64,000 nucleotides of DNA from assembly GCA_963920765.1 (NCBI GenBank), contig OY987244.1:20750358-20814357 (forward strand). The letters run 5' to 3'. Made by a program: the position numbers and the translations under genes. Numbering within the stretch: position 1 is the stretch's first letter; each line of letters begins with the position of its first letter. Shown here piece by piece: positions 1 to 63,788 of this stretch. The notes under the pieces are model-generated. The model saw only the letters and a list, made by a program, of their open reading frames with translations, made no database searches and had not been told where the DNA came from. Source of the stretch: Ulota crispa (lineage: Eukaryota > Streptophyta > Bryopsida > Orthotrichales > Orthotrichaceae).

Positions 1-368
1 TTTACAAAGTATGATTCACACCTCCAATTCATTTGAAAATTCTTCCACACTTACCTCACTTGGTCTTCTACAAGGAAAAAATAAACCTCAACTTTGCTTA
101 GAGCAATTTTTTTGATTTAGAAGCAATCAAAGACTTTTGAAATTTTGGGGCAGCATGGACGAATTTTTTTTCACTTTAGATGTCAATATCTCACTCCTCT
201 ACATCTAAAATTAGCTGATTTTTCTCTCATAATTACCTCTCATAGTCTAAGGCAAGATCCTATGATTGGATTTCCATTTTTTTTTTCCTACCTTTCTACT
301 CATTTCCCCAAAAGTGGCAGTTTTTAGTAACTTTCACAGAAAAAAAGGCTTAATCCTTAAGGGGTTAA
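1..368. mobile_element. piggyBac-like MITE, subfamily A, cut by window edge
   Basis: The right end reads CCTTAAGGGG followed by TTAA (365-368). Read in reverse, the whole stretch matches the first part of the elements at 5216-6151 and 39144-40070, including the AAAACTGCCACTT block and the ATAGGATCTTG block about 105 bp from the end. The other terminus lies outside the window. No coding capacity. Confidence 0.75.
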
Positions 369-791
369 TGTGGATCTTTCTGATCCTAGAGTTCTGATTG
401 TAAGCTTAAGCATAATGGTTGAGTAGATTTAAGTCACCAAATTAACTCAAATGTAAAATTCATAAACTCACAAACTCATCACAAGATGGAAAACATTGAA
501 TTTCAATAGCATTTTTATAAATGATAGAAATAATCACTTTTTTTTGGGTTAAATTTAAGATTTATTGTATTTCGGATTTTGAGCAATTCTAGGTTTCTTT
601 AGTATTTATTTGGTTTACATAAGTTTAGACATTTTTGCGTATTTACTAATATATAGATTTCTAAACAAACATGCCCAATACTTATACATTCATTGTTAAT
701 ATTGAAGAGAGTGAAATTAATGTTACTATGATAAAGTGATTCATTGAAAATCACAACTATTGTTGAAAAGCAATAAAAGAGAGGATGCATG
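369..791. other. AT-rich DNA, nothing recognised
   Basis: No coding signal, tandem repeat or terminal inverted repeat was found. Short open frames here look like chance. Confidence 0.5.
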
Positions 792-874
792 TACAGTGGC
801 CTCACAAAAATATTGTTGCGTTTTTCTCTTTCCTACAGAGGAAAATGCGACAATATTTTGGTGAGGCCACTGTA
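792..874. mobile_element. Tc1/mariner-type mini-MITE (83 bp)
   Basis: TA at each end flanks near-perfect inverted arms: CAGTGGCCTCACAAAAATAT on the left and its complement on the right, around a short loop. TA duplication plus CAGT-type ends is the Tc1/mariner/pogo pattern. The transcript would fold into a single long hairpin. Confidence 0.75.
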
Positions 875-1229
875 CAAGCAATGTTCTTACGTTATGGACA
901 ATCAAAATGGCAATTAATGAACTTCATTGTTTTTTTAACACAACAAACTAGTAATACTAGCAAATTGGAAAGTTTATTACATGTTGGAACACTATAGTGG
1001 TTGCAAAAATGAACATTTGTATAAGTGTAACATACTAAATTTCAAAATCAACAAATTGATTGATTAGAACAAATTTATAGTATAAGTTATTCAATGCTAA
1101 AAACTTGCACAAAACCACATCTAAAAGCCATATAGAGTCACACGAATGAAAAAAATAGTTGTAGGATCTCAAGAAGAACTTGCTTGCTCAAATTCAAAAC
1201 AAAAGGAATCCAAATTTATTAATAAATTG
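875..1229. other. AT-rich DNA, nothing recognised
   Basis: No gene or repeat structure seen. Confidence 0.5.
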
Positions 1230-1320
1230 TTAACCCTTAAATGTCAAAGGGGATGATTTTTGTCCCCGCAAATACATAGTCTCGTGTACCCATGGTGACC
1301 CCCCGGCACTTAAGGGTTAA
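1230..1320. mobile_element. piggyBac-like mini-MITE (91 bp), subfamily F
   Basis: TTAA at 1230-1233 and 1317-1320. Inside are CCCTTAA and TTAAGGG ends, with little between them except sequence such as GGGGATGATTTTTGTCCCC. It resembles the 95-bp element at 11898-11992 and the ends of the longer elements at 2754-3455 and 7811-8187. Probably an internally deleted derivative. Confidence 0.75.
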
Positions 1321-1860
1321 ACAAGTACAAAGAAAAAAATAATGCGTGACAAAGTTTTTTATATAGTCAAATGTTTTTTTGAATACAAAGGAATATGAGA
1401 TTCAAACATACTCAATAATTTTCAAGAATTTGGAGTTACAACAATGGAAGTGTTGTTTCCTAAGTTAGGTGTAGTCAAGGCCTATTTTATTTGACTACCA
1501 AGAAATGATTACTTCCAAGCATCCTATGTTGTATCCCTCAAGCTCCGTGCATGGATTTTGACACAAGGTAGGAACACCCATAAGCGTGGAACTAAGGATT
1601 TTGAAGTAGGAAAACTAGTTGATGAACTTTGAAAAAAATAGTGTTAAGGTAGGAAGAAGAAATTAAAAATATTGGTATCAATTTGAAAGTTCCAATTGTA
1701 AACATTTGTTCACAAAGATTTTTCAAAGTCTAACATCTCTAAAAATGCACAGTTGTGAGTAGGAGATGTCTTTAGTGTTCTCATATGCTCATAATACTAA
1801 CTTGAGGAATTCTTAAATAGTAAGATGAGGCACTCAAAACCGTCATGCCAGTCACCCATA
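1321..1860. other. AT-rich DNA, nothing recognised
   Basis: No feature supported. Confidence 0.45.
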
Positions 1861-2753: not shown

Positions 2754-3455
2754 CTCACCCCTTAAACAACAAGGTCGACTGATTTTGTCCATCTTACACT
2801 TACAAAAAAAATGGGTCCCTTACCTGTCAATTGGGTAATTACTACCTGGTTACGTGGATGGGGTGGATGGGAACGTGGGGATGGGGTGGATAGGGGACGG
2901 GATGGGAACATGGGGATGGGGTGGATAGGGGACGGGATGGGAACATGGGGATGGGGTGGATAGGGGACGGGATGGGAACATGGGGATGGGGTGGATAGGG
3001 GACGGGATGGGAACATGGGGATGGGGCATGGGGGACAAGAGCACATGGGGGGCATGGGATGGATAGAAAAAAAATTAATCCTCATACTTGCATTTACCTT
3101 GGTAAATGGGTTTACATGACTCGTTAGATAACAAAAAAATACTCTATAGGATGGAAAAAAGTAGTTTTTCATCTAATGTTTTGTAGAAGTGATCATAGAT
3201 ACATGATCCAAAATGGAAAGCAAAAATCAACCTCATCAAATGCAATTATACTATTAGTAACCCAAATTGTGAGAAGATTCATATATACAATGTTGAGTCC
3301 CACTCTATCTTTCTTGCAAATTTTTCCAGAACAACATGCACTATTGACTTTTGCAACTTTTGGAAATAGTATTATAATGGGTGGGCACTTGACATACCAC
3401 TATAGCGCTAGAGTAGAAAGTAGCTACAAAGACTAGTCTGACGTTTAGGGGTTAA
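2754..3455. mobile_element. piggyBac-like element, subfamily F, carrying a minisatellite
   Basis: The right end is GTTTAGGGG-TTAA (3452-3455). The left end near 2757 (CCCCTTAAACAACAAGG) matches the starts at 1234 and 11902, although its flanking TTAA has decayed. The part near 3340-3440 aligns with the reversed or forward interior of the element at 7811-8187 (CACTATTGACTTTT block). The G-rich array at 2869-3026 lies inside it. Confidence 0.55.
2869..3026. repeat. 35-bp G-rich minisatellite with quadruplex motif
   Basis: About 4.5 copies of a 35-bp unit. Each contains GGGGATGGGG, then GGGGACGGG, on the plus strand. Four runs of at least three G with short loops recur in every unit, so the array could form G-quadruplexes. 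Two long minus-strand open frames here are only the Pro/Ser translation of the repeat. Confidence 0.9.
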
Positions 3456-5215: not shown

Positions 5216-6151
5216 TTAACCCTTAATGGACTAAGTCATTTTTTCACTGAAAATCACTCAAAATTGTCACTTTTGGAGGGTTAGTAAGAAGGTAATTTTT
5301 TTTGAAAATTTGGGAAATCCAATCATAGGATCTTGCCCTAGACTAGATTAGGCACTTGCGTAAAAAAGAATTAGATCATTTCAGATGGACATGAGTGAGA
5401 TATTTACGTTTAAAATGAAAAGATTTTTTTTTTTTTTCATGCTGCTGCAAAATTTCAGAAGCCTTTGACCATTCTTACATGAAAATAATTGCTCTGCGCA
5501 ACTTTGCGCTTTGTTTTTCCCATGTAGGGGATCAAGTTAGCTATGTGTGGGAGATTTTTCAAATCAATTGGAACTACACAACACATAGGAAAAATCAATA
5601 AGTAAAAAGAAGTAGAGAATGAGTCAAATCACTAAATTGTTAAGAATTTAATTATTAGAATGAAAAATGCTAATCCCAACGGTCATAATATTGTGATAAA
5701 CAATCTATATCTTTTGGTTTTGATTTTTTTCCAAGATAATAAAAATTGAGTAAAATAAAGGACTTCAAAGTTTATTTCAAAGTAGAGATTCCATAATTGC
5801 ACGCAAACAAAAACTCCTCATAACTTTCATGTATTTGATTGAAATTGAATGATTCAAAGCTTCTCACCTATAAAAAAAAATCTAAAGAACCAATTTCAAT
5901 TTTTAATTTATTAAAAAAAATTAAATTGTTTTTGGGCTGCCCGGGCTGGCAGTCCTCCCTTGCTTTTCAGATTTTCAAGCATAACTTCTTCAATAATTAT
6001 CGGTTGAGGGAAAAATTAGATGCCCGCGTAGATCTTTGAATTCCCCACCTTCAATAAAAGTTTCAAAAAATCACACAAAGTAGCTTATCCAAAGGTACAT
6101 GCCTGAACTCCCACCTGTCCCCCCAAGAGACAACAATCCTTTAGGGGTTAA
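5216..6151. mobile_element. piggyBac-like MITE, subfamily A (936 bp)
   Basis: TTAA at 5216-5219 and 6148-6151, with CCCTTAATGG and CCTTTAGGGG ends. It has the ATAGGATCTTG block about 115 bp from the left end and the GCAACTTTG and GATCAAGTTAG blocks shared with 1-368 and 39144-40070. No transposase frame. Confidence 0.85.
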
Positions 6152-6883: not shown

Positions 6884-7205
6884 AGTTAGGGCAATAAAAT
6901 CGCTCACTTTCTCAAATGAACATTTTTAGTACATGTTCTTATTCAAAGCCCTTCAGTTATGTACAGTGGTCGTACATGGTCGTACATTTAAGAAGGTGGG
7001 CAGTTTTATAGTCCTATGACCTTCACACTTCAAAATTTCATAACAAATTTCATAAAACTCCAAAAAATATGAAAAAACTTGGGTTAGATGCCAATTCCTC
7101 TTGTTTTTCAAGTAAAAATTATTGAAAACTATTTCCGAAAGTTCCACCTCCCCAAATTTTGTTTTAGCCCTTAGATGGTTGGTTTATGAGCCTCTTACCT
7201 TTGGG
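6884..7205. mobile_element. Unclassified TIR element, family R (degenerate)
   Basis: It shares the GGTTAGATGCCAATTCCTCT block, the CACCTCCCCAAA block and the TTATGAGCCTCTTACCTT end with 56451-56790, and is distantly like 52028-52356. Its left end is not clear. Confidence 0.5.
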
Positions 7206-7583
7206 GTAGTCACGGCACTTTCTTGTGCTAATTTGGAGAATGAGAACTCGGTGGTGGCGCATTGCTAGTGGCTGCAAGAGCTTCGGACACAATTAGCGTG
7301 TGAAACTTCTCAGAGCTCCATTATTCTCCTACAAAGGTGAAGAAGGGAGTGGAGAATGAGTTAACGTGTGAACTTCTTACCATGGTCTACTTGTTTTTCC
7401 CGTTGGTGAATTGCTTTTCATGCTAGCTATTTCTGCTCCTCCAATCACTGACTGTGCTACCTTTCTCTAAGTAAACCATTCTCCATTCTCCATTCTCATT
7501 CTACAACACACACAAACGAGGATGTCACAGCATCTTCATGAAGAACGAGCTTCTATTGACTCCTCCTTTCTCTCCACAACTTT
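7206..7583. other. Intergenic DNA with CCATTCT-rich tract
   Basis: Around 7480-7505 a short CCATTCT-type tandem tract occurs. Nothing else is recognised. Confidence 0.4.
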
Positions 7584-7814
7584 TTAACCCCTAAGTGCCC
7601 AGAGTTATTTTTGGATTTGGGAGAAAATAGGGGGTTTAATGGCCACCTTAGCTTGGAAAATTACATCTAGAAAAAGTGACCGTAGGATTTGAAAAAGGAC
7701 TATCTTCTCTGCTGATGGGGACCAGCCATGATTGTTTTCACTGTACAAATTAATAGAAAAAATGAGATAAAGTTGTGGGCTCCAACTACAGGATCTTGTC
7801 GCTGGGGTGCTTAA
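7584..7814. mobile_element. Short piggyBac-like element (about 231 bp)
   Basis: It starts TTAA-CCCCTAAGTGCCCAG and stops at a TTAA (7811-7814) that is also the left TTAA of the next element. The right terminus (CTGGGGTGC) matches the left one only in part, so that end is probably truncated. An ACAGGATCTTG block occurs near the right end. Confidence 0.5.
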
Positions 7815-8187
7815 CCCCTAACTGTCCAAGAGGACAAAAATCATCCTTTCAATGTCAAAAACACATCCCGAGGGTGGAAAAATAATTTTTTTTCAAATTT
7901 TTTTTCTTGAAAGTGGTCAGAGAGATGTGCCACATCACTGAATGCCAAAAATAGCTACTTTCAATGCCTCCATATTTTTTTAAACACCAATTTGTAAAAA
8001 GATGTACAAGGTTCATGTTGCCCTTTTTGTGAGGGCAAAATACACTATTGACTTTTCCTTCTTTCAAGGAGAATATTATCTCTCTTGAACACATGCCACA
8101 GGCTGTTTGCTGCACATGAACAGTGCACTCTCCTCTATCTAAGCCCTAGGTTGGCCACGGGTTCAGGGTCAGTCCTCTAAGGGTTAA
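7811..8187. mobile_element. piggyBac-like MITE, subfamily F (377 bp)
   Basis: TTAA at 7811-7814 and 8184-8187, with CCCCTAACTGTCC and CCTCTAAGGG ends. The interior is related to 2754-3455. It abuts the preceding element through one shared TTAA. Confidence 0.75.
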
Positions 8188-10577: not shown

Positions 10578-10908
10578 TGTACAGTATTATGATTTTTACC
10601 CTTGTTTATAGAAAAGCTGAGATTTTCCACCCTGGCCGCACAAACACGAATGTGCAGTAAGTTACACCAAGCCGACACTGGTGCTTGCTCTCTGACATTT
10701 ATGTAAGTTGTCAGCAATTTTGCACACCTAGATTTCAATCACAGCCACCTCATATGGAATCCTTTATAGAAATGTCCACCCTGTCCATGGTCCCACAAAC
10801 TGGCCTACGACCATGTACCCTGTGTGTACAGTTATCACACAATGATTCAGTATGAGCCGGTTGTGAATGTGGATGACATCCTGTGACTTTAGTGTATTAC
10901 GGAGTACA
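10578..10908. other. Intergenic DNA with possible Mutator-like end
   Basis: Near 10608-10660 the sequence GCTGAGATTTTCCACCCTGG resembles the inverted terminal repeat at 51243. It may pair with 6566-6620. Nothing else is recognised. Confidence 0.3.
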
Positions 10909-11828
10909 TTAACCCCTAAAATTCTTTCGTGTTTAGAGGCCCAAAACTGCTTCAAAATATTAGTCCCCAAACTAGGGTCAAAATATTTAATGAAACTTAC
11001 TTTTTAACAATTCCAATCATAGGATTTTTTGGTTGACTTGCACAAGTGCATTGTCCCAAAATTTCAAAATGAATATCCCCACCAATTGCAAGATCAATAT
11101 GCTTAAATTTCAAAATGTAGGCTTTTCTAGTCCTTCCAGAAGGTGAAGTTTTGTTTTTCAAACTTTTTAGAGAAAAACACATATGTTGTATTTCTTGTGC
11201 AATTTTTGCAATATGTTGGAAAATGGGTTGAAAGCATATATAAAAAAATTAACCAAAAAAAACTTTGGATTCATCTTTACATAAATTGTAAAGTGAAAGG
11301 TATTGATGAATGAAAGATATAACTAATATGCTAATAAGTTTTGGAAGAATTTGAAATTGTTAATCCCAATGGTAAGAATGCTCTAACAGACAATTAGTAA
11401 CTTTCATTTTCATTTTCATTTGAAAATTTTCAAAATTGAGAGTAAAAAATAACTTTATATGTTTTTTCTACCCTCTTCCTACCTTCATTGCCCGCAAAAT
11501 AAAACTCCTTTGAGCTCTTACCTCATTATTTGGAATTGAGTGGTTCAATTTTTTTTGAGTAGGTATCAATCTATAAAGTTCTAAAAAAAGAAAAAAGAAA
11601 AAAAAAAGGATATGTTTTTTGCTACCCGGTTTGACATTGAAATTGAAAAAACCTTATAACTTTTGCATTACTTATTGGAATGACATGAAATAAAGCTTCC
11701 CATGTAGATTATGATGAGTAGCATCCATCCTAAAAAACTCATGAAAAATTTCCAAATTATGAAGTCAATAGAACCTGCCCGAGTTCTCATAGAGCCCAAA
11801 GTGGGCTGCTTGGGCCTTTAGGGGTTAA
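10909..11828. mobile_element. piggyBac-like MITE (920 bp)
   Basis: TTAA at 10909-10912 and 11825-11828, with CCCCTAAAATTC and GGCCTTTAGGGG ends. The CATAGGAT block is about 110 bp in, and an AATCCCAATGGT block near the middle is shared with subfamilies A and B. A diverged member of the same 0.92-kb family. Confidence 0.85.
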
Positions 11829-11897: not shown

Positions 11898-11992
11898 TTA
11901 ACCCTTGAACGACAAGGCGAATGAAAATTGTCTGCAAGGTATACACTATATCAGTGCAACCACGGTGACCAGCCCAGGCATTCAAGGGTTAA
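11898..11992. mobile_element. piggyBac-like mini-MITE (95 bp), subfamily F
   Basis: TTAA at both ends with CCCTTGAACGACAAGG and GGCATTCAAGGG. Resembles 1230-1320 in length and in the GGTGACC block near the right end. Confidence 0.75.
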
Positions 11993-12074: not shown

Positions 12075-12895
12075 TTATTCCATTAAACCTTGAACGGCCC
12101 GAAAGCCCTTTGCATTTGTATGTACAGATGTACTTGAGCTGCTCTGAGGGCTTTTCAATTTTTTTATGCACCCACCGTCATACAACCCTTCAATATGTGT
12201 GGTTGTGACACTTAATTTCCAGCTGATTCAAACTTCTAAATATTGGTTGCAACCATATTTGGTACCGTATCTCCAGAGCCCAAGGGCCCTTTAGGGGTTA
12301 AGGTCCATGGTCAATTCTAGGGGTGCACAAGGCCTTTTTTGGTGTTTTGGAAAAACTCATACTAACAAAGAATATGAATGCGTACAGAAAATCCAATTGT
12401 ACAGATGGCAATGTCATGAATGGTTTATGGGTATGCATCATTTTTTAATGTTTGATTTCATTTGCAGGTAGGTTTAAATGTGCATGTATGCATTTTTGTA
12501 CAAATATGGCGGTCTCTACGGTGGTGGATTGTATTTCTTTATGGACTGATATTTTTTGTTGCTAAATGGACCATGTGGCAATTCTTTAGGATGATGATGG
12601 ATTTCAAGGAAACCTGGATTCTTGGGAACAAGTACAAGTACTCAATCTTTACCAATTGAGACCATCTTTCTACATTCATTCTTGTATTTTGGCAGCCAAT
12701 ACTTCTTGAGTTTTTCCAATGCCCTAACCACATGGCAGCTCAGCTAAACTTGAGTTTTGTTCCAAGCTATGGGATTCCTAATTGCCTACACCCGTCACCT
12801 TTGCGACATCCTCAAATTTCTTGACATGCTTTCCCTACCAACTAAAAAGTGACAAAATTGACCAAAAATTGGTCGACCAGACCTTAATGGGTTAA
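12075..12895. mobile_element. piggyBac-like MITE, subfamily E, split by another
   Basis: The right end GACCTTAATGGG-TTAA (12892-12895) complements a left end made of TTCCATTAA (before 12087) continued by GGTCCATGGTC (after 12301). The left terminal repeat is therefore interrupted at an internal TTAA by the 219-bp element at 12083-12301. Related elements are at 22443-23068 and 24474-24881. Confidence 0.6.
12083..12301. mobile_element. piggyBac-like MITE, subfamily D (219 bp), nested
   Basis: TTAA at both ends; ends are ACCTTGAACGGCCC and GGGCCCTTTAGGGG. Closely related to 41533-41761 (shared GTTGTGACACTTAATTTCCA-type block and the ACCATATTTGGTACC-type block). Inserted at a TTAA within the left end of the subfamily E element. 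Confidence 0.75.
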
Positions 12896-13029: not shown

Positions 13030-13790
13030 TTAACCCTTGAGCGCCCAAGCTGATTTCACCAAAATCAAGGTTCTTGGAGATCAACAACTTTGATGCATTG
13101 TATCTTAGTCAATCAGATGATCTACAAAAAGTGACCATTGAAAATAGTGGAATACCTACTTAGAAAATGGCTTGCAAATTTGGGAACAATTCACCGTGGG
13201 AGATGGGAGATTATAACATTTGATCAAACAACATGTGATGAAAAAATCTCATTTTTTGGTAGGTAGTTGCTACTTGATGATTTTTACAAAATTCTATAAG
13301 CCCCAGATTCATCTCAAACTTTGTGAGCAATAAGATTAGATGTGAATGCACACATTTGTAAATTATTGAAGATTGCTCTTCTTTTTATGTCAAGTTTTAG
13401 GGCTTCAAATTGCTATTGCATGGAAAACAATGACCTGTTCAATTGGCAAAGGTTGCCATAATAAGGGTCTAGAACATGCTTGAACCCTTACCAATAATTT
13501 TCTCACTACTACAAAGCACACACAAGGAAGCTTGCAAGGGATATTGACTAGTTGCAGCATGTAAAACTCTACTTGCCACCACTCCCCTTATGGTATTTTA
13601 CCCAATCAAATCTCTTGCAACACTTGTACAACATTTGGCTTTCTTTACCATTACTCCATTGACATGGACAACTTGAATGCCTTCATAATTGTAGTTTATA
13701 GCAAGATCAAAAAGTTAGATCAAGTGCCTCAATCCAGGTTTTGAAAACTGCAGTGACCATAATCTGGTCTTTGGGGCGCTTAGGGGTTAA
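13030..13790. mobile_element. piggyBac-like MITE (761 bp)
   Basis: TTAA at 13030-13033 and 13787-13790, with CCCTTGAGCGCCC and GGGGCGCTTAGGGG ends. The interior is unlike the other subfamilies and has no long frame. Confidence 0.75.
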
Positions 13791-16544: not shown

Positions 16545-17922
16545 CATTTATTTAGTAGGAGTATGTGGGTGGAAATTCATGCCAAGAAAAATGGGGTCAT
16601 TTTGAACCAAAATTTTCACACAAGTGGACCCTAAACCAACTTCAAGCACTCGTTATGATAAGAGTATGATGGGGTAATTTCATTGCGTGAAGCTGTGAGG
16701 TCAAAAAGTTGACACCACATGTGCAAACCTTGAATTTTTCAAAATAGAAGGGATTGAAAAAGAAACCAAATAGAACCAATAGTATTTTTATTCCATCCTA
16801 AGGTGTTGATTATCTTAAAATGATGTTTTTATAATTCAGATAATCATACTTTAATATAACATACTAATTGTTCCAGGGTCAAGGATTGGCATTCCACTTT
16901 TGGAAAATCCAATTTTTTTGGGTTGGGATTATATTAAGTCTTGTCTTCTTAACCCTTTAAAGACCACAAGTATTTTCACAAAATTCATTAGAAATTGGGG
17001 TAGTAAACTTGGATGTGCATTTGAATCAAATATGGACGTAATTTCAATAATCCAACCGTACAAATGGGAACTACACCTTGTTTACTACAAAATATCAAAA
17101 TTTCAACTAGATCTACTGATGGAAGTGAAATATTATAATGTTTGAATGAGTTGTAGGTGGAAAATCTCTAGTTTTTGTGCTTGTGTAGTTTTGGATCTTA
17201 CTACTTCATACAAGCTTTGTTTGAAAAGAGCCTTATATTTCTAAAAATCATGGTATCTCAACTTTCTAATGAGACTAGTTTCACACAAAATGGATAAAAA
17301 TATCAATCGCAAGGTGTAGCTGAGTGGACAAAAAGGGTTAAAAATCCCACTTTATTTGCTACCCAAAAACAATTTTACAAGAAAACTGATATATGCTATG
17401 GAAAATCCAATCGGTGAAAACAATAAAGAATTGGCCTTAAATGTAGAACAACAAAGTTTTAATATGGAATGATAGCACCATTTTAATAGATTTTCAAATA
17501 TTACAATTATACTACTCCCGTATAGAGAAACAAGACAAGTGTATTTCTTGAGGAATTTGAAAAAAATTAGGAGTGCACAATTGAAATTTGACATTCTTCT
17601 TGAACGTTTGATGAATTGTGTTGTTGCTTTGATCCATCTATGACCAAATATGGATACGTGTTTTGAGGCCATGCCGTATAAACATCATTATTTATCAACT
17701 CATATGCCTAATTTCATTGTTTTTTCTTTGGTTGGATGCAAAATTCTTGTGAGCACAAGCATTCTTCAAAACTGGTGTCCAAATTGTTGAACAATTTTAC
17801 TCTATAAGCCAAAAACCACTCTCCCAAACCAAAATATGGTTTGGTGGTCTCTAAAGGGTTAAGTAGTAAAAAAATATCCTACAAATTTGGCATTAGTTCC
17901 TAGTGTAAAGGCTTTGAGGCCA
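16545..17922. mobile_element. TIR element, family T, split by a piggyBac-like insertion
   Basis: Outside 16949-17862 the sequence follows the 8839-9366 element: ATGGGGTCATTTTG and GAGGTCAAAAAGTTGA blocks on the left, then TTCCTAGTGTAAAGGC near 17897 on the right. The left end is eroded. A Helitron begins directly at its right end. Confidence 0.6.
16949..17862. mobile_element. piggyBac-like MITE (914 bp), nested in family T
   Basis: TTAA at 16949-16952 and 17859-17862, with CCCTTTAAAGACC and GGTCTCTAAAGGG ends. Joining the flanks at one TTAA restores the order seen in the family T copy at 9220-9240. The interior is not closely related to subfamilies A or B. Confidence 0.85.
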
Positions 17923-19447: not shown

Positions 19448-20373
19448 TTAACCCCTAAAGGACCATGGCCTTTATTTTGTCAAAAGACACTCAAAACTGC
19501 CACTTCTATGGCAAAGAGTAAAAAAGTTTAAAAATTGGTCTTTTTGCATATCTAACCATAGGATCTTCTACTAGACTTGTATAAGAAAGTGTCATTCAAA
19601 ATTTAAAAACTCAACTAACAAAAATTGCAAGATATTTGCGTTTAAAGTATAAAAAACAAGTTTTTTTGCACCTTGCAAGACTAGATTATTTAACTTTAAA
19701 CTTTTTTAACTAAATTTTTTTGCACCATGGAGTTTTGAGGTTTATTTTTTTATGCTGGGGAATTGAGTTGAGAATCTTGGAAAAAACCCATAACAAAAAA
19801 TACTTCATTTTCATTCTTTAAAAAAACATTAGGTAGAAGAAGGTATGAGATTGAACAAAAACTTAAATTGCTAGTAACCTTGCAATGGAATTGAAACTCA
19901 ATAATCCCAATGGTGAGGTTGTTCTAGAAAGCAAACTTCTACCTCTCCAACAATTCATTTTGAAAAATTGTTAAACCCACATTCAAAAATGAAGTTTATA
20001 AGTTATTTTTTCAAGAAGATGCTTGAGTTGCCCAAAAATCAAGATTGTCCATAACTTTCTCATAACTAGTCCAAATGGAATGAATCAAAGCTTCAGATGT
20101 AAACAAAGATATAATCTACAAGGGAAATTTATATAAAAACGAAATCAAGTTTTTATAAAAAAAATTTGCTGCCCGGACCCCCCAAATTTGTGCTTATTTG
20201 GGCATAGCTTTTGCTCCTTGGCATTGATTGGAATAAAAATTATGTCCCCCTAAAGCTAATCTATTTTTTTGTTTTTGAAAAAAGTTTCAAAAACCAGGAC
20301 AAAATTGAGGCCGTAGATACTTGCCCAAAATCCCATTTGTCCCCCAAACGAACAATGGTCTTATAGGGGTTAA
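19448..20373. mobile_element. piggyBac-like MITE, subfamily B (926 bp), young
   Basis: TTAA at both ends, CCCCTAAAGGACCATGG start. Over roughly the first 810 bp it is almost identical to 43639-44564, with only a few differences, which implies recent spread. The last 100-120 bp diverge sharply between the two copies. No long coding frame. Confidence 0.9.
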
Positions 20374-41761: not shown

Positions 41762-41881
41762 GGAAATATTGCATATGATTTGTAACAGACTTGGATACAA
41801 TCACGTGAATGGTCAAAGACCTTGATGTTACATGAAAATAACAACAAAATATACAAAAAAAAAAAAAATTTAATATTTAAT

Positions 41882-42006: not shown

Positions 42007-42294
42007 AGTGGTCTTTGTTTTTTATTCATTTTTATTTTAAAATATTTTATAAACAAAAAGGTATGTATATATAAAAGTTGATGTATTTTATGTCATGAGA
42101 TACTAAACCCCTAAACACCCAAGGGGGTAAGGGCATAATATAGATGTGTTATAAAATGATACTTTTGTAACTTTGATGAAGTTTGCTATAAAAGAGAAAA
42201 TAAGAATCATGATGTTTAGTAATTACCCATACAGTCAAAATATTCAAAAAAAAATTTTGGACTCTTATTTAATGAATTTAGAAGCATTTATCAT

Positions 42295-43638: not shown

Positions 43639-44564
43639 TTAATCCCTAAAGGACAATGGCCTTTGTTTTGTCAAAAGACACTCAAAACTGCCACTTCTAT
43701 GGCAAAGAGTAAAAAAGTTTAAAAATTGGTCTTTTTGCATATCTAACCGTAGGATCTTCTACTAGACTTGTATAAGAAAGTGTCATTCAAAATTTAAAAA
43801 CTCAACTAACAAAAATTGCAAGATATTTGCGTTTAAAGTATAAAAAACAAGTTTTTTTGCACCTTGCAAGACTAGATTATTTAACTTTAAACTTTTTTAA
43901 CTAAATTTTTTTGCACCATGGAGTTTTGAGGTTTATTTTTTTATGCTGGGGAATTGAGTTGAGAATCTTGGAAAAAACCCATAACAAAAAATACTTCATT
44001 TTCATTCTTTAAAAAAACATTAGGTAGAAGAAGGTATGAGATTGAACAAAAACTTAAATTGCTAGTAACCTTGCAATGGAATTGAAACTCAATAATCCCA
44101 ATGGTGAGGTTGTTCTAGAAAGCAACTTCTACCTCTCCAACAATTTGTTTTGAAAAATTGTTAAACCCACATTCAAAAATGAAGTTTATAAGTTATTTTT
44201 TCAAGAAGATGCTTGAGTTGCCCAAAAATCAAGATTGTCCATAACTTTCTCATAACTAGTCCAAATGGAATGAATCAAAGCTTCAGATGTAAACAAAGAT
44301 ATAATCTACAAGGGAAATTTATATAAAAACAAAATCAAGTTTTTATAAAAAAAATTTGCTGCCCGGACCCCCCAAATTTGTGCTTATTTGGGCATAGCTT
44401 TTGCTCCTTGGCATTGATTGGAATAAAAATTATGTTCCCCTAAAGCTAATGTATTTTCCTATCTTCAAAAAAAATTTAAAAAATCAAGAAAAAGTTTGAA
44501 GTTGTAGGTACCTTCCCGAAATCCCATTTGTCCTCCGAACAGACAATGGTCCTTTAGGGGTTAA
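43639..44564. mobile_element. piggyBac-like MITE, subfamily B (926 bp), young
   Basis: TTAA at 43639-43642 and 44561-44564. Nearly identical to 19448-20373 until about 44450, after which the last 110 bp differ strongly. Confidence 0.9.
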
Positions 44565-44963
44565 CTTAGTCAAATATGGATTAGTTTATCTAATTACTTT
44601 CAATGAAGATGGAAACCTTTTATGCTTACATTTAACTAAATTTAACGCATTATTCATTAAATTGGGAAAAGGGAGTTTCCCAAAACTTATTTTTGGAATA
44701 CTAGATTTTGTATTTGTGAGAATATTTCAACGATTTGAAGTGATTTTTTTGATAATTCTTATAAGGTATTTCATAATTGATGTAAGATCTTGAAGAAATC
44801 ATCATAATATTCACTCTAAATTACCTGAAAACTCTTAAAAGTGAAAAATTCAAAAGTCCCAATATGTAAGTTTTTTTTCCAATTTAATGAATAATGCGTT
44901 AATTTGGATTGTACAAATTCTGAAATTTGTCATTTAGTTGTAGGAGACATGTGAAGAACACTA
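44565..44963. other. AT-rich DNA, nothing recognised
   Basis: An AATTTAATGAATAATGCGTTAA-type segment near 44880 is an inverted match of 44637-44662, so a degenerate TIR element may span about 44637-44903. Confidence 0.35.
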
Positions 44964-45068
44964 GGAGATGTGTGGTGTACATTGGGAGATGTGTGGTGTA
45001 CATTGGGAGATGTGTGGTGTACATTGGGAGATGTGTGGTGTACATTGAGAGATGTGTGTAGAACATCA
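44964..45068. repeat. 21-bp minisatellite, five copies
   Basis: Units of GGAGATGTGTGGTGTACATT plus G. The first four are virtually identical and the fifth is diverged. Because 21 is a multiple of three, all frames show a seven-residue peptide repeat, which explains the short open frames on both strands. Confidence 0.9.
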
Positions 45069-45691
45069 AATTGTGTTTCCAAAACATCAAGAGAGGTACG
45101 TCCCTCAGATAAGGAGATCTCTTTCTGTTTTGCACACAAAGTCCAAAAACACATGAATAATCCAAATCCAGTTAAATGTGTGTTTTTTTCTAAACATGGA
45201 CAAGATTAAAAAAATGTTCTTTGTTGCCAATTATTTTCATTGATACATATGAGTGAATTGTATATTCAATTAATTAGAACATTGCACGTGATTGGATGAA
45301 AAGCATCCAATCATTCTAGATATGTGCTAATCAGTTATTGAAAAAATCAAAACTTCAATCCATTGTTAAGATTTTGGGTAAGTCTAAACAAGTGCAATAT
45401 TTGTAGTCACTTTGTGGTATTCGGACCAAACGTATGTTTCATTACTAGCTTCAAGGACTAGAAAATGTTACAACAGTTCAAGCTTATTATCGAAGTTATG
45501 CTCCAAAAAGCTTTTTTTTGGTTGGAGGCCAAACAAACAATTGGTATATATGGCCCAACTTCTTACCACCATTACCCCCAATGGTGCCGATTTCGGAGAA
45601 GCTTCAATAAATAAAACCAAATGGATGAGAAGTGCGTACCCTCCAAAGTTTACCCTTTTGAATGATGAAAAATTTGGACCACCTTGTACTG
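45069..45691. other. AT-rich DNA, nothing recognised
   Basis: A plus-strand frame of 96 codons (45412-45702) has no recognisable motif or splice context. I do not call it. Confidence 0.4.
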
Positions 45692-46588
45692 TACAGTACT
45701 AAAAAGAAAGAGTACATAACACCCTTTTATGGCATCCAAAGCAAGAGATTCAAAGAAGTATATATAACTAGGTATAACAAAGAATATAACTGACATTTCA
45801 TTTTCACATTTTTAATATGAGATCCTCATGCAATCTTGATCAAGCACATCGAATTTCAGTTACTAAAACCCAAAATCTTATTTTTGGTAAATGGTTTTGC
45901 GTTACAATCATGGTTTTACAAGAAAGTTGATTAATAAATAGTGGTGATGAATTTTTGAGATTTGATTGCATGGATATGTAGGAGACATCCATACACACAT
46001 CTTCCTTTCAAACAAACATTTCCAAAGAAATTCAAAATTTCTTTTGCAGAGATTTTAATGTTAAAGTGATCATCACCAAATTTAGTAAAATACATATTTC
46101 TTCATGGAAATTAGTTTTTGGCAAAGAAAACATATCAACATGTTTAAGGGTACAAACTTAATCACAATGTATGAGTCAAATAACAAAAACTAATTTTCAT
46201 GAAGAAATATGTATTTTACTAAATTTAGTCATAATCACTCTGACATTAAAATATCTACATAATGAATTTTGAATTTTTTCAGAAATGTTTGTTTGAAAGA
46301 AAGATGTGCGTATGGATGTCTCCTACATGTCCATGCAATCAAATCTCAAAAATTCATCACCATTAATTATTAATCAACTTTCTTGTAAAACCATGATTTT
46401 GACACAAAATCATTTACCAAAAATAGGATTTTGGGTTTTAGTAACTAAAATTTAATATGCTTGATCAAGATTGCATGAGGATCTCATATTAAAAATGTGA
46501 GAATGAAATGTCAGTTGTGTTCTTTTTTATACATACTTCTTTGGATGCCATAAATGGGTGTTATGTACCCTTTCTTTTGGGTATTGTA
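45692..46588. mobile_element. Large foldback element 1 (about 0.9 kb)
   Basis: TA at both ends, CAGTACTAAAAAGAAAG start. Arms of about 430 bp are inverted copies (GAGATCCTCATGCAATCTTG against CAAGATTGCATGAGGATCTC; ATGGATGTCTCCTACATGTC block). A short core lies near 46140. TA target and CAGTA ends fit Tc1/mariner loosely. Confidence 0.75.
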
Positions 46589-47449
46589 CAGTACCCTACA
46601 AAAAGTATATGGAAGTCCTAGTTTCGTGCTTAAAGACTTCATTTTGAAATCAAAATTAGGGGATGCTCCGCTGAGATTTTGGACAAAAATTTTGAACAAA
46701 AAGAACTCAAAATTTCTAGGAGAACAATTTTTGTTCCTAGCCAAATAGCTTATTTTGCATGCATAGTAAGTGATCAATCAACAAAGTGGAAAGTTGTACG
46801 TTCAAGGGCAATTTTTCAAATCTCAATTACTCCATCATTTACTAAGATTCTGAAAGAAGTTTCTAAAAAGAAACAACTCAAAACTTACACAAGAGTAACT
46901 TTCATTTGAGGCTCAAAAGCTTATCAAGCATGCCTTGTTCACAAATGAAGCCCAAACAAGCATGGTGGAGAGTAGATGGGGTTTTTTTTGGAACATTCGC
47001 CTTTGTGGGGTGAGAGTTGCACATCCACACAAATATTTGCACACTTCCTATGTGGTCCACTTGTTTGAGCTTCATTTTTGAACCACAAAAGCATGATAAG
47101 CTTTTGAGTCTCAAATGAAAGTTACTCTTGTGTAAGTTTTGAGTTGTTTCTTTTTAGAAAGTTCTTTTAGAATCCTAGTAATTGATGGAGTAATTGGGAT
47201 TTGAAAAAATTACCTTAGAATGGACAACTTTCCACTTTGTTGATTGATCACTCACTATGCATGCAAAATAAGCTATTAAGCTAGGGACAAAAATTGTTCT
47301 CCTAGAAATTTTGAGTTCTTTTTGTTTAGATTTTTTTTCCAAAATCTCAGCGGAGCATCCCCTAAATTTGATTTTGAAATGAAGTCTTTAAGCACAAAAC
47401 TGAGACTTCCATATACTTTCTTTTGGATACTATATTGTACAATACTGTA
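46587..47449. mobile_element. Large foldback element 2, joined to element 1
   Basis: It begins at the TA that ends element 1 (CAGTACCCTACAAAAAGT) and ends near TATTGTACAATACTG-TA. Arms of about 380 bp pair (GGGGATGCTCCGCTGAGATT against AATCTCAGCGGAGCATCCCC would differ by only a base or two). Its outer 20 bp resemble those of element 1, but the interior is unrelated. Confidence 0.7.
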
Positions 47450-47468: not shown

Positions 47469-47744
47469 ATGCACTACAAGAAAAAAGGGCCGTTTTTGAT
47501 TAAGGATTTTGATTACAAAAAAGACTAACACGACTCAGAGTAAATGACTAGTCAGATGACCACATGTAATCATAAATAATGTAATTAGTCATGAATGTAA
47601 TCATAAATAATTTAATTTATGATTACAGGTAGTCATAAAATAAATTATTTGACTCATACTAGACCAGTCAAATACTTTGAGTTGTTGTACTGTTTTTGTA
47701 GTCAAAATCCTTAGTCAAAAAGAGCCCTTTTTCTTGTACTGATG
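47469..47744. mobile_element. CACTA-type MITE with ATG duplication
   Basis: ATG duplication at 47469-47471 and 47742-47744. Ends CACTACAAGAAAAAAGGGC and, reversed, CAGTACAAGAAAAAGGGC. The 3-bp duplication and CACTA terminus identify En/Spm. The interior has further inverted GTAATCATAAATAAT-type repeats. Confidence 0.88.
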
Positions 47745-48733: not shown

Positions 48734-50066
48734 CTAGTATATGGGCATGAGTAGTGCACAAGTTGGATTTGCTTGGATAATGCAACATTGAACTGATTTT
48801 ACAAAAAACCAATATCTCACAAATCAAGTGGTCTAGAATCTAACCTTGATGCACTATTATTTTGGTTCTCCTTTGTCTCATGAAGTGACAATCAAAAACA
48901 ATAATTGCCTTTGTTACAGTGCTACTCTTTTGTACTTTGCTGGGATGTTGGGCATTTCTATACTTGGGGCACTCACTTCAATATCTTAATATTTTGTTGG
49001 TTTTGTAGTGCATGGTTGGAAGGCGCTTAATGTTTTGCATTTGGGGCATCCTTTATTGCTTTGACTTATACCAAAAAGTTCTAAAAGATTTTAGAAAAGG
49101 GCAAGGAGTGATGGAGAAAAATTCTCTTGCTTAACCCCGAAAGGACCATGCCCTTTATTTTATCAAAAGACACTAAAAACTGCCACCTCTATGGCAAAGA
49201 GTAAAAAAGTTTGGAAATCAAGCATTTTGCATATTTGACCATAGGATCTTGTGCTAGACTATTATAAGAATGTCTCATACAAAACTCAAAAACTTTGACC
49301 GCACAAATTGGAAGATATATGCATTTAAAAAGTAAAAAAGAGCATTTTTTGCATCTTGCTTGATTAGATTTTTTAACTTTGAACATTTTTAACTTAAAAA
49401 TTTTGCACCACATAGTTTGGAATTCTATTTTTGCATGGTGGGAAGTTGAGTTGGGAATCTTGGGAAAATTTTTGAGAAAAAAATATTTAATTTTCATTCT
49501 TTAAAAAAACATTAGGTAGAAGAAGGTATGAGATTGAACAAAAACTTAAATTGCTTATAACCATGCAATGGAATTGAAACACAATAATCCCAATGGCAAG
49601 ATTGTTCTAGAAAGCAAACTTCACCCTCTCTAAAAGTTTTTTATGAAAAAATGTTAAACCTGCATTCAAAAATGAAGTTTATAAGTTACTTTTTCAAAAA
49701 GATGCTTGAGTTGCCCAAAAATCAAGATTGTCCATAACTTTCTCATAACTAGTCCAAATGGAATGAATTAAAGCTTTAGATGTAGACAAAGATATAATCT
49801 ATAAAAAAAAATTAATTAAAATTTTCAAGTTTTTATTAGAATTTTTTTTGTTGCCCCTAGTCCCCAAAGTTGTGCTTATTTGGGCATAACTTTTGCTCCC
49901 TGGCATCAAATGGAATAAAAATTAGATGCCCACGCAGATCTTTGAATTCCCCATCTTCAAAAAAAGTTTCAAAAAACTAAGACAAGAATTGAGGCCGTAG
50001 GTACTTGCCCAAAATCCCGTTTGTCCCCTGTAGGGACAATGGTCCTTTAGGGGTTAATAGTATAGA
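48734..50066 (-). mobile_element. Helitron-like element H7 holding a piggyBac-like MITE
   Basis: On the minus strand it starts TCTATACTATTAA (from 50066) and ends CCATATACTAG-T (48734-48737). Related to H6 (23961-25121) on both sides. The base before TC is G rather than A, and the 3' hairpin is weak. A subfamily B element is inserted 10 bp from its 5' end. Confidence 0.55.
49131..50057. mobile_element. piggyBac-like MITE, subfamily B/A mosaic (927 bp)
   Basis: TTAA at both ends. It follows subfamily B from the left end to about 49918, then switches to sequence typical of subfamily A (ATTAGATGCCCACGCAGATC, TTTGAATTCCCC). Inserted in Helitron H7; related H6 has CTTAGTAGTATAGA at the same place. 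Confidence 0.85.
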
Positions 50067-54046: not shown

Positions 54047-54049
<3 letters not shown>

Positions 54050-54263: not shown

Positions 54264-55150
54264 CTAGTATAGGCACCAGTTGGTCCGACGGGGCGCAAAA
54301 TAATTTCAGGCCCACCTGCGCAAAATATTTCCCCCTCAAGAAATTAATTTTTATTTTTTATCCGTGCATTTCAATTTCAAACTTTAATCATGCAACCGAA
54401 CATTTATCTTTGATTACAAAACATTCCCTTGCAATAAACCATTTTTTGTTTTATACCCATAGAATTTTTTACCCCCACAATAAAAAGAATGTCACTATTT
54501 TCACACAAAGTGAATACTATTTATTTTTTACCTACACAAATTTTTATCCGCACAATAATTATTCACGCAATTATTTTTGTATATTTTGTTTTTTACCCAC
54601 ACAATTTTGTTATGTATTTTTTTATTTACACTTGCATTTTTTACACATACAATTTTTTGCCCATACATTTTTTCCTCATGCAAGTTTTTGCCTATGCAAG
54701 TTTTTGCTCAAGCAAGTTTTTACCCACATATGTTTATTTATCCATATGGTAAAAAGATTGCCACATAGTAAATCATATTTTTGTTACATGCATAGATTTT
54801 TTTTACCCACACATGTTTATTTACCCAAGCAATAAAAGGATTGAACACAATATTTGTTAAAATGGGAAAAATAGGGGTTTAATTTGTTTCCCCTCAAACC
54901 CAAAACGTTACTTTAAACCAGATTTAAAGGTACCAGATTTAGTTTAAACCACTAAGATTTTTTCCCTCGCAAATCCCTCCTCTCAAGTGAAGGCACTTGT
55001 ACAAAAAAAAACACTGAACTTGATTTGAGGTGATCACCTCAAACTTCTGAAAATCCCAAAATGTACCATTTTTCCCAAATTAACAAATATCCTGTTATCG
55101 GGTAAAAGGATCGCCACAGCCTACAATCGTATTCTGTTATTATATAGAGA
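54264..55150 (-). mobile_element. Helitron-like element H1 (887 bp)
   Basis: On the minus strand it begins A-TCTCTATATAATAACAGAAT (from 55150) and ends with a GC-rich hairpin (GTCGGACCAACTGGTGC) and CTATACTAG-T (54264-54267). Flanking A and T match the Helitron target. The interior is degenerate ACCCACAC/TTTTTTACC blocks as in H5. A family Q element is inserted at 54846-55094. Confidence 0.75.
54846..55094. mobile_element. TIR element, family Q copy 4, nested in H1
   Basis: CACAATATTTGTTAAAATGG faces CCAAATTAACAAATATCCTG. It shares the ACCACTAAGATTTTTTCCCT block with copies 1 and 3. Confidence 0.7.
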
Positions 55151-55474
55151 TGGTGATTTTTTTTTGGAATATATGAAATAGAAAGTTAATTGTAAAAATG
55201 CTTATGAATTCCTTATATTCGTTAATGCTTGAAGTCAAATTTGAGAGCCTATATTTGAGCTGAAACAGTCAAATTTTGATGTGAAACATACTTGAGCATT
55301 TTGAGATCCAGAGCAAATGCAAAGAAAATTCATGGAGATCTATATCGTACCAATGTTAGAAATCTGACACACATGAGTCATGGGTGTGGATGGATGTCAA
55401 AAAGAGTTTCCATATAAATGAGACTTGTTGATTTTTATCCATTGTTCAAACTTTGAATCTTTACTCTTTACACC
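55151..55474. other. AT-rich DNA, nothing recognised
   Basis: No supported feature. Confidence 0.45.
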
Positions 55475-55627
55475 TTAGAGCTTCTCCAATGCAACCGGTA
55501 AACAGACCTGAAATACCCAGCGTGACATATTAATAGCCATTAGACCATGATCCGATGGATATTAATATTAATATGTAAGGTTGGGAATTCTAGATCTATT
55601 CATCGGTTGCATTGGGGATGTTCTAAT
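55475..55627. mobile_element. Tourist/Harbinger-like MITE (153 bp)
   Basis: GAGCTTCTCCAATGCAACCG and, reversed, GAACATCCCCAATGCAACCG. Flanked by TTA and TAA. Ends are of the GAGCATCTCC type seen at 61252-61597. Confidence 0.7.
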
Positions 55628-55721
55628 ACTAGGGTTAATCTACAATTTCACTTTCTTTAAATCATAAGGTGGGAGTTTGTTTGCTTAGGCATAAGTAAGG
55701 GTAGTCTTAACTAGAGATAAG

Positions 55722-56454
55722 TTAATACCTAAAGGACCATTGTCCCTTCGGGGGACAAATGGGATTTCGGGCATGTACCTATGGTTAAACCGCTTTGTGT
55801 GATTTTTTGAAACTTTTATAGGGTTTAGGAATTCAAAAATCTAGGTGGGCATCTAATTTTTTCTTCATTCCAACGTTTATTGAAGAAGTTAAAAATGAAT
55901 TTATGAAAAATGGGGGAGGCCGAGCATGCCAAAAACTTCTTCAAATTCTTTGCTTTTTAAAATAAAAATATGAAATAGGTTCTCTAGACTTATATATGTG
56001 TGGAGAGTTTTGAATCATTCAATTTCAATTGACAAGATGATAGTTATGAGAAGATTTAATTTGCAAGTAGGTAAGGTTTCTCTGAAAACCATACCTACCC
56101 TCACTTGAAAATTTCTCATAACTTTCATCTCATCAATTCAAATTGAATGATTCAAAGCTCCTCATATATATATATATATAAGTCTAAAGAACCTATTTCA
56201 TATTTTTATTTTTAAAAAAATGCAATTTTTAAAGAAGTTTTTGGGCTGCCCGCCCTTCCCCGTTTTCTAGACATGCATTTTTAACTTCTTTGATAAATGT
56301 CGGAACGAAGAAAAAAATTGGATACCCACGCAAATCTTTGAATTTCCCATCTTCTATAAAAGTTTCAAAAAACCATGCAAATCAAAGTAGTTGTAAGTAC
56401 ATGCTTGAAATCCCATTTGTCCCATAAAAGGGCCAACGATCCTTTAAGGGTTAA
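55722..56454. mobile_element. Foldback piggyBac-like element (733 bp)
   Basis: TTAA at 55722-55725 and 56451-56454, with TACCTAAAGGACC and CCTTTAAGGG ends. Each half is an inverted copy of the right half of subfamily A, meeting near 56090 (GTAGGTAAGG against CCATACCTAC). No left-end sequence of the family remains, as in 42295-42878. Confidence 0.8.
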
Positions 56455-60569: not shown

Positions 60570-61059
60570 GATTTTCAATTAGCAAAACCAACCATTAGAA
60601 ATTTGTTTTGCAAAAAATCTTAGTATACTAGTGAGATTTTTTTAACACATGTTTGAAATGCAAGCTCATGAAAGGAGTGTTTCCAGTCTTTGTTGGTCAT
60701 GAATACTTGTGGAAATATGCCTAAAATGATTTAGAGTATGTTGAACAAATCTCTTGTGTATCCATAGTGCAAGAATTGTTCACAATATGCACTCAAAGGG
60801 ACCTGAAAATTTGAGGTAGATGTCACATAAACCATTTGTACTAAATTCAAATACTCATATCTCTCAATCCAAATGGTCAAACTCCATGAAAATTTTACCA
60901 TGACTTCTTGCATATGTCTAATACAAGATCCTACAACTAGATTTGTAAAATCAAGAAAAAAAAAAAAAAAAAAAAACATTGTTCTTGGGATCAAACGACT
61001 GGAAATGACAATTTTCTTTGTTTTTTCAAAAACAGTGGGCTTAGGAATTTAGGGGTTAA
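60570..61059. mobile_element. piggyBac-like element, right part
   Basis: The right end is GGAATTTAGGGG-TTAA (61056-61059). Read in reverse, it has the TGTAGGATCTTGTATTAGAC block about 120 bp in, as in subfamilies A and B. The left end could not be located and is probably lost. Confidence 0.55.
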
Positions 61060-61251
61060 GACAACCTAAATGTAGCGTTTAGTGAATTGTTATAGCACTA
61101 CTATTACCCATGCATTATTATTCTTATTCAAACATATGGGAAGAAAGCTAGAGATGCTCTACAGGACCGCGGCAACAGTGCTGTCCACGTTCCTATGCTG
61201 TCCACGTTCCTACCCTTCAACCTTACCCAACTGTACCTTCACTTGCCACTA
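61060..61251. other. Spacer with short tandem duplication
   Basis: CTGTCCACGTTCCTA occurs twice at 61180-61212. A piece of family U (ACAACCTAAATG...GTTTAGTG) lies at 61061-61085. Confidence 0.45.
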
Positions 61252-61597
61252 TAAGAGCATCTCCACCACACAAGTGGCATAACATCCCAGGGAAACGCCG
61301 TGGCTTTATTTCAGCCCATTGTTTTGTAATTTTCCCACCCTTGCAAATAGGCAAAATAGTGCTCAATCAATAATAAGCTTCTTCATTTGAAAAAGTAGAT
61401 AGAATCTCCATCACTACCTATTCAATATATTAATTGACCCAAAAAAAGTGATGTTTAGAGGAGTTGCTTTGCACTGAATATTACAAATTTTGCAATGCAA
61501 GGAAGAATCTTTTGACGGATCCAAGCATCAAGAGCAACCTTTTCATTCAAAAGCGTATCTAAAAACTGTGTTTCTCCATATGGATGGAGGTGCTCTA
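61252..61597. mobile_element. Tourist/Harbinger-like MITE (346 bp)
   Basis: TAA duplication at 61252-61254 and 61595-61597. GAGCATCTCCACCAC and, reversed, GAGCACCTCCATCC. This GAGCATCTCC terminus is typical of plant Tourist-type MITEs. Confidence 0.8.
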
Positions 61598-61697
61598 ATC
61601 ACAAAGCATATGATTCTTGCCCATGCTGTTGTGGGACATTAGTTGTACCACTGTAACATCGTGCTCTTGTGAGCAAAATATTTAGACAAAGTCCATA

Positions 61698-63788
61698 TTT
61701 ACCCCTAAAGTACTAAGTGGCTATTTAACAACCACTTAAGAAATCGGGTAGGGTCATATGGAGTTAATTTTTATTGGATGTTCTCAAAATCATTACAAAA
61801 GGAACAAATATGTATCCCCAAAGTGGAAATGTAACTTTTTACCCAATTGGATGCCCGGTTCAAAAGTTATGTTGTCCAAAAGAAATTGGGCAGCTTGGGC
61901 AATTTGGGCATCTTTGGAGAACCTTATGCTAAAGGGTAGTTGCAAGAAACACTTCACGGTTTTGTGTCAAAATGCCTCTTTTTGGATGTAACATTGGGCA
62001 ATACTACTAGTACTGCAAGTACTACATAGTGTCCGTGCAATGGAAATCTAAACCATCCCTCCCATCCTAGATCTATTGGGAACAAGGAATGTGGTATGTC
62101 ATTTAGGAAGGCCAACTATCAATAATGGCAATTCAATGAAAGGATGAAAAAAAATTCACATCCTCAGATGATGTTAGTGGTCAGTGGTCAGTGGTCAGTG
62201 GTACTACATAGTGCTAGTAACGGTACAATAGTACTATTGAGGCCTCTACACCAAAAATTAGCTGAAATTCAAGGTTGCCACCTTTTCAATTTTTGTAATT
62301 ACAAGAAAAATATCAAAATTATAACAAAAAATAGGCATTTGGGTACCTTGTTAGGGGCATGGACTGATGCAAACAGGTTTTGAAAAATGTTTGTTTCCAT
62401 GCACTAAAGTCTGTCCAATGGATGTCCACTTTGAGGGAAAGTGGAGGGCATATAATTTACATTTTTCTAAACCCCTCAGCAAATCCATGTAATGTTCAAT
62501 GGTGAACAACTTCCCAAATTTGTAGCACCAAATTCCTTTTTTTTGCCTTAATGCAATACTGAAAACCCACAAAACGGCAAAGGTAGACATGCCATTGGGG
62601 TCCATGAAAAATTAATGAATGATTTTTTTTAAAACCCAAAAAAACATAGTAGGTCAATAACTTTAGTGTAAACCTTCCTCTAAATTTTCACGTGAAAAGA
62701 AGTTAGTAAGCAAAAGATACACCCCTAAAACCACAAACTGTGCAGCAAGGGGACAAAAAGCAAGACAGGTGTTTCTTGCAACTACCCTAAAATTCTCATC
62801 AACTTTTGAAATTTGGCAAGTATGTAACTAAAAAAACATGGTGTACACTTGTCAAAAAAAAAAAAAAAAAAAAAAGAGTTCCCACATCAGATTTTGCAGG
62901 GAGTCAAACTTTGTTAACTATGTTTGGGTAGTTTCAAGAAAAAAAAAAATTCCTTTAACTTCAGGCCCTATTATCTTTCAATCTATAAATCCCAAGCTCT
63001 TGAAATTTTTTTTCACATGTTCCAAATGTTTGTCTTTGACTTTTCACGATTCAAATTTCAAATAAAAGACTTCCTTAGTGCACAAGAAATCATGAAAGAA
63101 CAACTAGTGTATTGCCAATTCACTAAACCTCCTTGCATTGGGACGACGCTATTTTATGAGCGTAAAATGGTGAGCTTGTGAGCTGTGAGCCAAGATTTGG
63201 GGAGTAAGAATCAATTTTGATCTCAAAATCAATGAAAAAACTTTAAAAAGCTGACTTTTTCAAAAGATAAAAGTTTAAAATGCATAATTATAGGGCCCTA
63301 TGTACAAAGCTATAGGTGAAATTGAGTGTTTTGACAAAAATCTAGGCTCACCACGATCATGGCTCACGGATCCCCGCTCACAAAATAGCATCCCCCCCTT
63401 GCATTGCAAGGTGATTTAGAGTAAGCTAGGTTCTATATTTGCATCTAAAAATTTTCATGAGTAAACCTAATATCATATACTTGTGAATGGTCAAAAAACT
63501 CATTTTTGTGTAGAGCAAAAAATTTACTCTAGGAAGACTCAAAGTCTGCTGACCTTGTTTTGCAGGAATGAACAAAGTTGTTTTTCTCACGTCAAACGTT
63601 ACAATCTTAGTATCCACATTGTCAAATGGGCTGAATATTTTGACACACTTTAATTTGTTTGTTTTACACACTTTTTATAATTAAAATTGAGAAAAAAGAT
63701 TTTTAATTTCTCTTTTGGGCAATGCACTAAAAGTTGGCAGTTTCTGAGATTTTTTTAAAAAAAACACTCTTGGTCCTTTAAGGGTTAA
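61698..63788. mobile_element. Degraded piggyBac-like DNA, composite
   Basis: It starts TTTA-CCCCTAAAGTACTAAG (61698) and ends GGTCCTTTAAGGG-TTAA (63785-63788). Inside, GGGTAGTTGCAAGAAACAC (61935) is matched in reverse at 62768. Further poly-A tracts (62856-62875) and non-repetitive DNA lie between. It may be one foldback element of about 1 kb (61698-62720) followed by a second, separate element whose right end is at 63788. Confidence 0.4.

Follow-up and report, generated by a model that had tools for sequence, protein, structure and literature searches.

The 64,000-base window analysed here (G000:C3:20750358-20814357, in an assembly of 274.8 Mb and 157 contigs) harbours numerous short elements lying between TTAA words, which are very likely non-autonomous transposons (miniature inverted-repeat transposable elements, MITEs) of the piggyBac superfamily, residing alongside larger, autonomous-type elements in the genome of a land plant. 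We favour this interpretation because of their CCC...GGG ends, their TTAA target, the transposases of family PF13843 (DDE_Tnp_1_7) found inside larger elements with such ends and, finally, a window element at 22443-23068 that is a deletion derivative of one of these larger elements; the first three of these also support the piggyBac assignment made in an earlier note on this DNA. As a rule, piggyBac is recorded from animals and certain protists rather than from land plants.

Comparison of the window with itself revealed repeated blocks of ~930 bp as well as fold-back blocks. Under strict conditions (per end, no more than one mismatch over TTAA and CCC combined; 14-base inverted ends differing at no more than 4 positions; length 60-1300 bp), a scan returned 18 end pairs, against 0-4 (mean 1.4) across 30 dinucleotide shuffles of the window, and 3, 3, 3 and 0 pairs in the real window when TTAA was replaced by AATT, ATAT, TATA and TCGA, respectively. 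The scan pairs at 10595-10981, 44642-44902 and 54820-55638 were judged to be due to chance or to another family, the pair at 7164-8187 was replaced by 7584-8187 (the right end being common to both), and two elements missed by the scan (41533-41763 and 55722-56454) were added. The final tally is of approximately 17 complete non-autonomous elements with TTAA flanks and CCC...GGG ends, including a doubtful member at 24474-24881, and their sizes (91-936 bp) agree with the 91 to about 940 bp given in the earlier note. The "about 25 elements" of that note are real as a population, given 18 pairs against at most four per shuffle, but the figure includes fragments and solo ends. Its estimate of roughly a quarter of the window was slightly high: in blast, a 42-element library, to which the window contributed 16 members that match themselves by construction, accounts for 12,794 of 64,000 bases (20.0%). 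Of the 25 segments concerned, each 40 bp or longer, four are short or weak (at 3133, 11354, 12844 and 35440) and three (61698-63788) look like a single broken element. The window holds 12 exact 18-base ends, versus 5.3 expected at the genome-average density.

These ends are not a local peculiarity. The elements terminate in CCCYTNANNGMCCA-like inverted repeats, of which there are tens of thousands in the genome: the generic 18-base end TTAACCCYTNANNGMCCA occurs exactly 22,705 times (5 for a reversed-pattern control) and 49,031 times when up to one mismatch is allowed (119 for the control). At 0.6-0.9 kb per two ends, the elements would very roughly make up 2.5-8% of the genome. The end of a second family, TTAACCCCTAAATGCCCA, is present in 3,235 exact copies, whose spacing among the sites listed suggests sizes of ~650 and 79 bp, among others, and the TTAACCCYTNANNGMCCA sites listed show ends that grade from one family into the next. 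Inverted ends beginning CCY...RGG are part of the definition of piggyBac, and such ends were found in the end scans of the window, the genome and the transposase loci. When 40 of 4,161 candidates for one main-family query were scored, the best match other than the query itself was 96% identical (and in the same window), all others being at 91% or less, which suggests that the burst of this queried main subfamily was not very recent.

TTAA is the duplicated target of these elements. Genome-wide, the end of the main ~930-bp family, CCCCTAAAGGACCA, has 8,876 exact copies, and TTAA stands directly in front of 7,555 (85%) of them. Further observations come from paralogous empty sites, searched for by joining the flanks of 36 elements around one TTAA and comparing them with sampled sequence; of 15 matches spanning the joint, three fell in the element's own locus (L031, L034 and L050) and were dropped, leaving 12. 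For three elements the empty sites are clean and hold a single TTAA-like word. The 936-bp MITE at 5216-6151 (also recovered by end-pair scan and library blast) has an uninserted relative at L071:367-644 that reads TTAG. For the 584-bp fold-back MITE at 42295-42878 (also in the end-pair scan), whose flanks have decayed to TTGA and TTAG, the uninserted relative lies ~3.5 kb away, at 38646-38869, and has a single TTAA. The L051 element is nested in another MITE, five uninserted copies of which align without gaps at the site, each with one TTGG, TTGA or TTGC. A short 62-bp empty-site match with TTAA was also obtained for the L041 element. Because clean empty sites hold one TTAA-like word, and because two copies of one transposase-bearing element, on C3 and C10, stop matching at its TTAA ends (see below), the target duplication claimed in the earlier note is supported.

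Matches to the corresponding enzyme are numerous in the genome. Scoring of 116 of 527 candidates gave 120 above-cut-off matches to PF13843 on C1 to C11, a few of them being two pieces of a single copy. Five transposase fragments match this family at E 6e-60 to 2e-64. In a comparison of transposase fragments, four were 35-55% identical to a fifth. The L006 fragment matches the structures of piggyBat (9c0f, E 2.4e-25) and piggyBac (6x67, E 6.4e-24). All four catalytic aspartates (DDD and the fourth D) are retained in 7/11 loci, with D to N changes in L002, L007, L008 and L055. In 8/11 loci a C-x2-C...C-x2-C motif begins no more than 200 nt after the DDE domain, and a stricter eight-ligand cysteine pattern was found in none of the 11. 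In 9/11 loci, L003 and L004 being the exceptions, the DDE domain is preceded at a distance of 1.7-3.3 kb by a conserved region (NCLQE...RQIAKLLGW; at least one of three queries at E <= 0.05, the query loci being counted); this N-terminal region matched no Pfam family in the two copies scanned. A scan of viral contigs with the transposase alignment yielded no relative. At G000:C1:1180709-1181995 the transposase match lies in an uninterrupted frame of 563 aa, perhaps that of a domesticated gene or else of a young copy. Separately, pairs of transposase copies with equal or almost equal scores occur in opposite orientation at C7:18203169/18223004, C10:676128/785346 and C2:36765124/36779670, which suggests large inverted duplications or assembly artefacts.

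At some of these loci the transposase lies inside an element of 5.0-6.0 kb with TTAA and CCC ends, as in the joined stretches on C3 and C2, in which elements with paired ends span 5,027 and 5,102 bp, respectively. Ends pair with at most 3/14 mismatches in five of 11 loci (L001, L002, L004, L005 and L006). Stronger evidence comes from the C10 copy, whose limits were predicted from the C3 copy to lie 2525 bases ahead of the domain match and 1365 bases behind it, and were found at 2525 and 1364 in two 701-base pieces read around the predicted places. Within the elements the two copies are 90% (left) and 96% (right) identical; the likeness starts exactly at the left end and is lost one base after the right end, the flanks outside being unrelated. 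By gene content and ends, the larger elements would be of autonomous type. The earlier note had implied an autonomous partner elsewhere in the genome, and PF13843 transposases, several within TTAA- and CCC-ended elements, answer that description.

A link between the two size classes is the 626-bp element at 22443-23068 (minus strand), whose first 328 bases align to one end (E 9e-30) and last 270 to the other end (E 1e-27) of the 5,586-bp transposase-bearing L005 element, nearly 5 kb, transposase included, being left out. A further match of this element is to L055, at the only end known there (E 1e-27). In controls for such links, shuffled sequences gave one match from 42 elements and reversed sequences none. 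With halves that correspond to the two ends of a 5.6 kb transposase-bearing element, 22443-23068 has the classical structure of an internally deleted, non-autonomous derivative.

The nature of the host deserves scrutiny, since piggyBac would be unremarkable if the nuclear genome were not a plant's and the plastome a contaminant. Contig C157 (112.5 kb) is a plastome, carrying rbcL, a 312-aa accD, psbA, psbB, psbC/D, psaA/psaB, ndh genes (names given by eye from translations) and a ycf2 of 2292 aa, a length that fits mosses. The best PDB matches of its psaB protein are 6l35, 8htu and 7ksq, structures of Physcomitrella photosystem I. On this plastome evidence, the host is probably a moss. A non-plant nuclear genome would agree with the typical occurrence of piggyBac in animals, but 52 of 56 matches to the light-harvesting family PF00504 are on the large contigs C1-C9, rbcL fragments are present on C1, C2, C4, C5 and C7, and the 37 Mb contig C2 contains an insert (L011, G000:C2:30606175-30609465) of nine scrambled plastome pieces, mostly 93-99% identical to C157. 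Since there is a plastome contig and the light-harvesting genes sit on the big contigs, the nuclear genome is the plant's, and contamination as an explanation is extremely improbable.

Several observations weigh against the piggyBac interpretation and have to be set beside the evidence above. In the window itself, tblastn with a set of four transposase fragments gave no match even at a cut-off of E 1, in line with the absence of a transposase remarked on in the earlier note, and many transposase copies elsewhere contain stop codons. End pairing alone is modest evidence, as a left end from one locus and a right end from another pair equally well in 16/110 combinations; moreover, L003, L007 and L053 have no convincing ends, L008 (4/14) and L054 (5/14) have poor pairs and L055 has one end only. 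The left flank of the C10 copy is TTCA. The empty-site matches come from only five of the 36 elements, exact TTAA being seen in just two relatives (that at 38646 and the short one in L055) and TTAG, TTGG, TTGA or TTGC in the others, and a gap or insert interrupts the site in all three relatives of the L035 element as well as in a minisatellite match of L041. Only 5/42 library elements match any of eight transposase elements (E 1e-3), mostly over short lengths, and one shuffled control does so too; for the main ~930-bp family the match is that of L028 to L004 (29 bp, E 9e-4). No transposase-bearing copy with ends identical to those of the main family (CCCCTAAAGGACCA) was present in the 12 loci read, not all of them to both ends. 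The transposase elements have ends of the same kind, the nearest among the loci read being CCCCTAAATGCCTA (L004), but not the identical main-family end.

TTAA alone is not unique to piggyBac, as it is also duplicated by Kolobok and Sola3, and a superfamily of this sort could have made the MITEs, with piggyBac merely co-resident; the main family's autonomous partner not being among the transposase loci read would suit such a scenario. It is nevertheless very unlikely, as the transposase within TTAA/CCC-bounded elements belongs to PF13843, 22443-23068 is built of both ends of an element bearing that transposase, and the ends grade between families among the sites listed. A mixed origin, in which some families (22443 for certain) are piggyBac and the ~930-bp main family was mobilised by an unrelated system with convergent ends, draws on the weak likeness of L028 to L004 just described. 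The graded end series and the TTAA preceding 85% of exact main-family ends both speak against it, and we regard it as very improbable.

Under the piggyBac interpretation, the transposase of the 5.0-6.0 kb elements would have bound the ends common to both size classes in trans, as the sharing of these ends implies, and would have excised the MITEs and integrated them elsewhere at other TTAA words, which were duplicated in the process; the majority of copies now appear to be decaying. More broadly, we lean towards the view that a branch of piggyBac specific to plants has long been resident in mosses, comprising several families, 5-6 kb autonomous-type elements, an unrecognised N-terminal region and tens of thousands of MITEs that together occupy several per cent of the genome. 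PiggyBac would in any case be a very abundant class of DNA transposon in a moss and, if such a branch exists, a major component of a land-plant genome. This raises the question of whether piggyBac came to bryophytes by descent or by horizontal transfer, and whether it was lost in vascular plants. Such elements may go unnoticed or be mislabelled where repeat annotation of plant genomes takes no account of TTAA elements. A native plant piggyBac could also become a tool for plant genetics.

The remaining members in the window are as follows, with strand given where assigned. The main family is represented on the plus strand by MITEs of 926 bp at 19448-20373 (CCCCTAAAGGACCA; 96% identical to 43639-44564; self-comparison and end-pair scan), 911 bp at 29906-30816, 926 bp at 43639-44564 and 927 bp at 49131-50057 (the last three from the end-pair scan). 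Another 927-bp MITE from that scan, at 39144-40070 (plus strand), adjoins the right end of another element, TTAA 39144-39147 being common to both; at 39136-39147 the two abutting TTAA elements thus have a single common TTAA (GGGGTTAACCCC), which suggests insertion exactly at the other copy's target. The end-pair scan also gave a 95-bp MITE at 11898-11992, a 761-bp MITE at 13030-13790 (CCCTTGAGCGCCCA / CCCCTAAGCGCCCC) and, together with self-comparison, a 219-bp MITE at 12083-12301, 80% identical to 41580-41763. Supported by both end-pair scan and library blast are a 91-bp MITE at 1230-1320 (TTAA followed by CCCTTAAATG.../CCCTTAAGTG...) and a 914-bp MITE at 16949-17862 (CCCTTTAAAGACCA / CCCTTTAGAGACCA). 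Library blast identified a 604-bp MITE at 7584-8187 (CCCCTAAGTGCCCA / CCCTTAGAGGACTG), one of ~230 bp at 41533-41763 and, along with self-comparison, a 733-bp fold-back MITE at 55722-56454. The incomplete members include part of a ~930-bp MITE cut at the window edge (1-368, minus strand, end ...TTAAGGGGTTAA, 85.7% to the L038 element) and, from library blast, a partial MITE at 60595-61059 (70% to the L033 element, right end TTTAGGGGTTAA) and a single, apparently interrupted element at 61698-63788 (pieces 61698-61933, 62783-63141 and 63394-63788, 85.7-86.9% to the L035 element).

Other repeats share the window. Inverted-repeat elements at 41881-42007 and 47472-47741 have ends like CACTACAAGAAAA, as in plant CACTA elements. 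Two long fold-back elements with GTACTGTACAGTAC-like ends and arms of ~83% identity, at 45686-46594 and 46581-47445, overlap by 14 bases, as if one were seated at the other's end. A large imperfect minisatellite with units of ~14-17 bp (CCCCATATCCCCGTGCC) occupies 20979-22160, and smaller ones are found at 1831-1998, 2830-3039 and 44922-45087 (units of 21, 35 and 21 bp, respectively).

Among the matches listed in a literature search, no title or abstract opening described piggyBac in a moss; Repbase and most subscription papers were outside its scope, so that an earlier notice is possible. In a paper on the moss Niphotrichum, "piggybac" was part of the word "piggybacking". PiggyBac is among the DNA-element superfamilies that one review (PMC10794571) enumerates in general terms in a passage on plants. 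Compared with piggyBac of Trichoplusia ni and piggyBat of Myotis, the moss elements have the same DDD+D transposase (the L006 fragment against 6x67 and 9c0f), a C-terminal cysteine motif (partial in the moss, 8/11 loci), the TTAA target and CCC... ends, the latter being those of piggyBac. They differ in being 5.0-6.0 kb long, whereas piggyBac is ~2.5 kb, and in the region ~1.7-3.3 kb before the DDE domain (NCLQE...RQIAKLLGW), Pfam-matchless in two copies. The MITEs resemble the piggyBac-derived MITEs of insects in being short and non-autonomous, with a TTAA target and piggyBac-like ends, but unlike these they reside in a land plant, whose 275 Mb contain the end 22,705 times exactly and 49,031 times with one mismatch allowed. 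The closest parallel in a land-plant genome is that of the fern Ceratopteris, where PiggyBac-labelled fragments make up one line of the repeat table (1,230 copies, 122 kb, 0.00% of the genome; PMC6890710); unlike that table line, the moss elements come with transposases, defined ends, target duplication and a deletion derivative.

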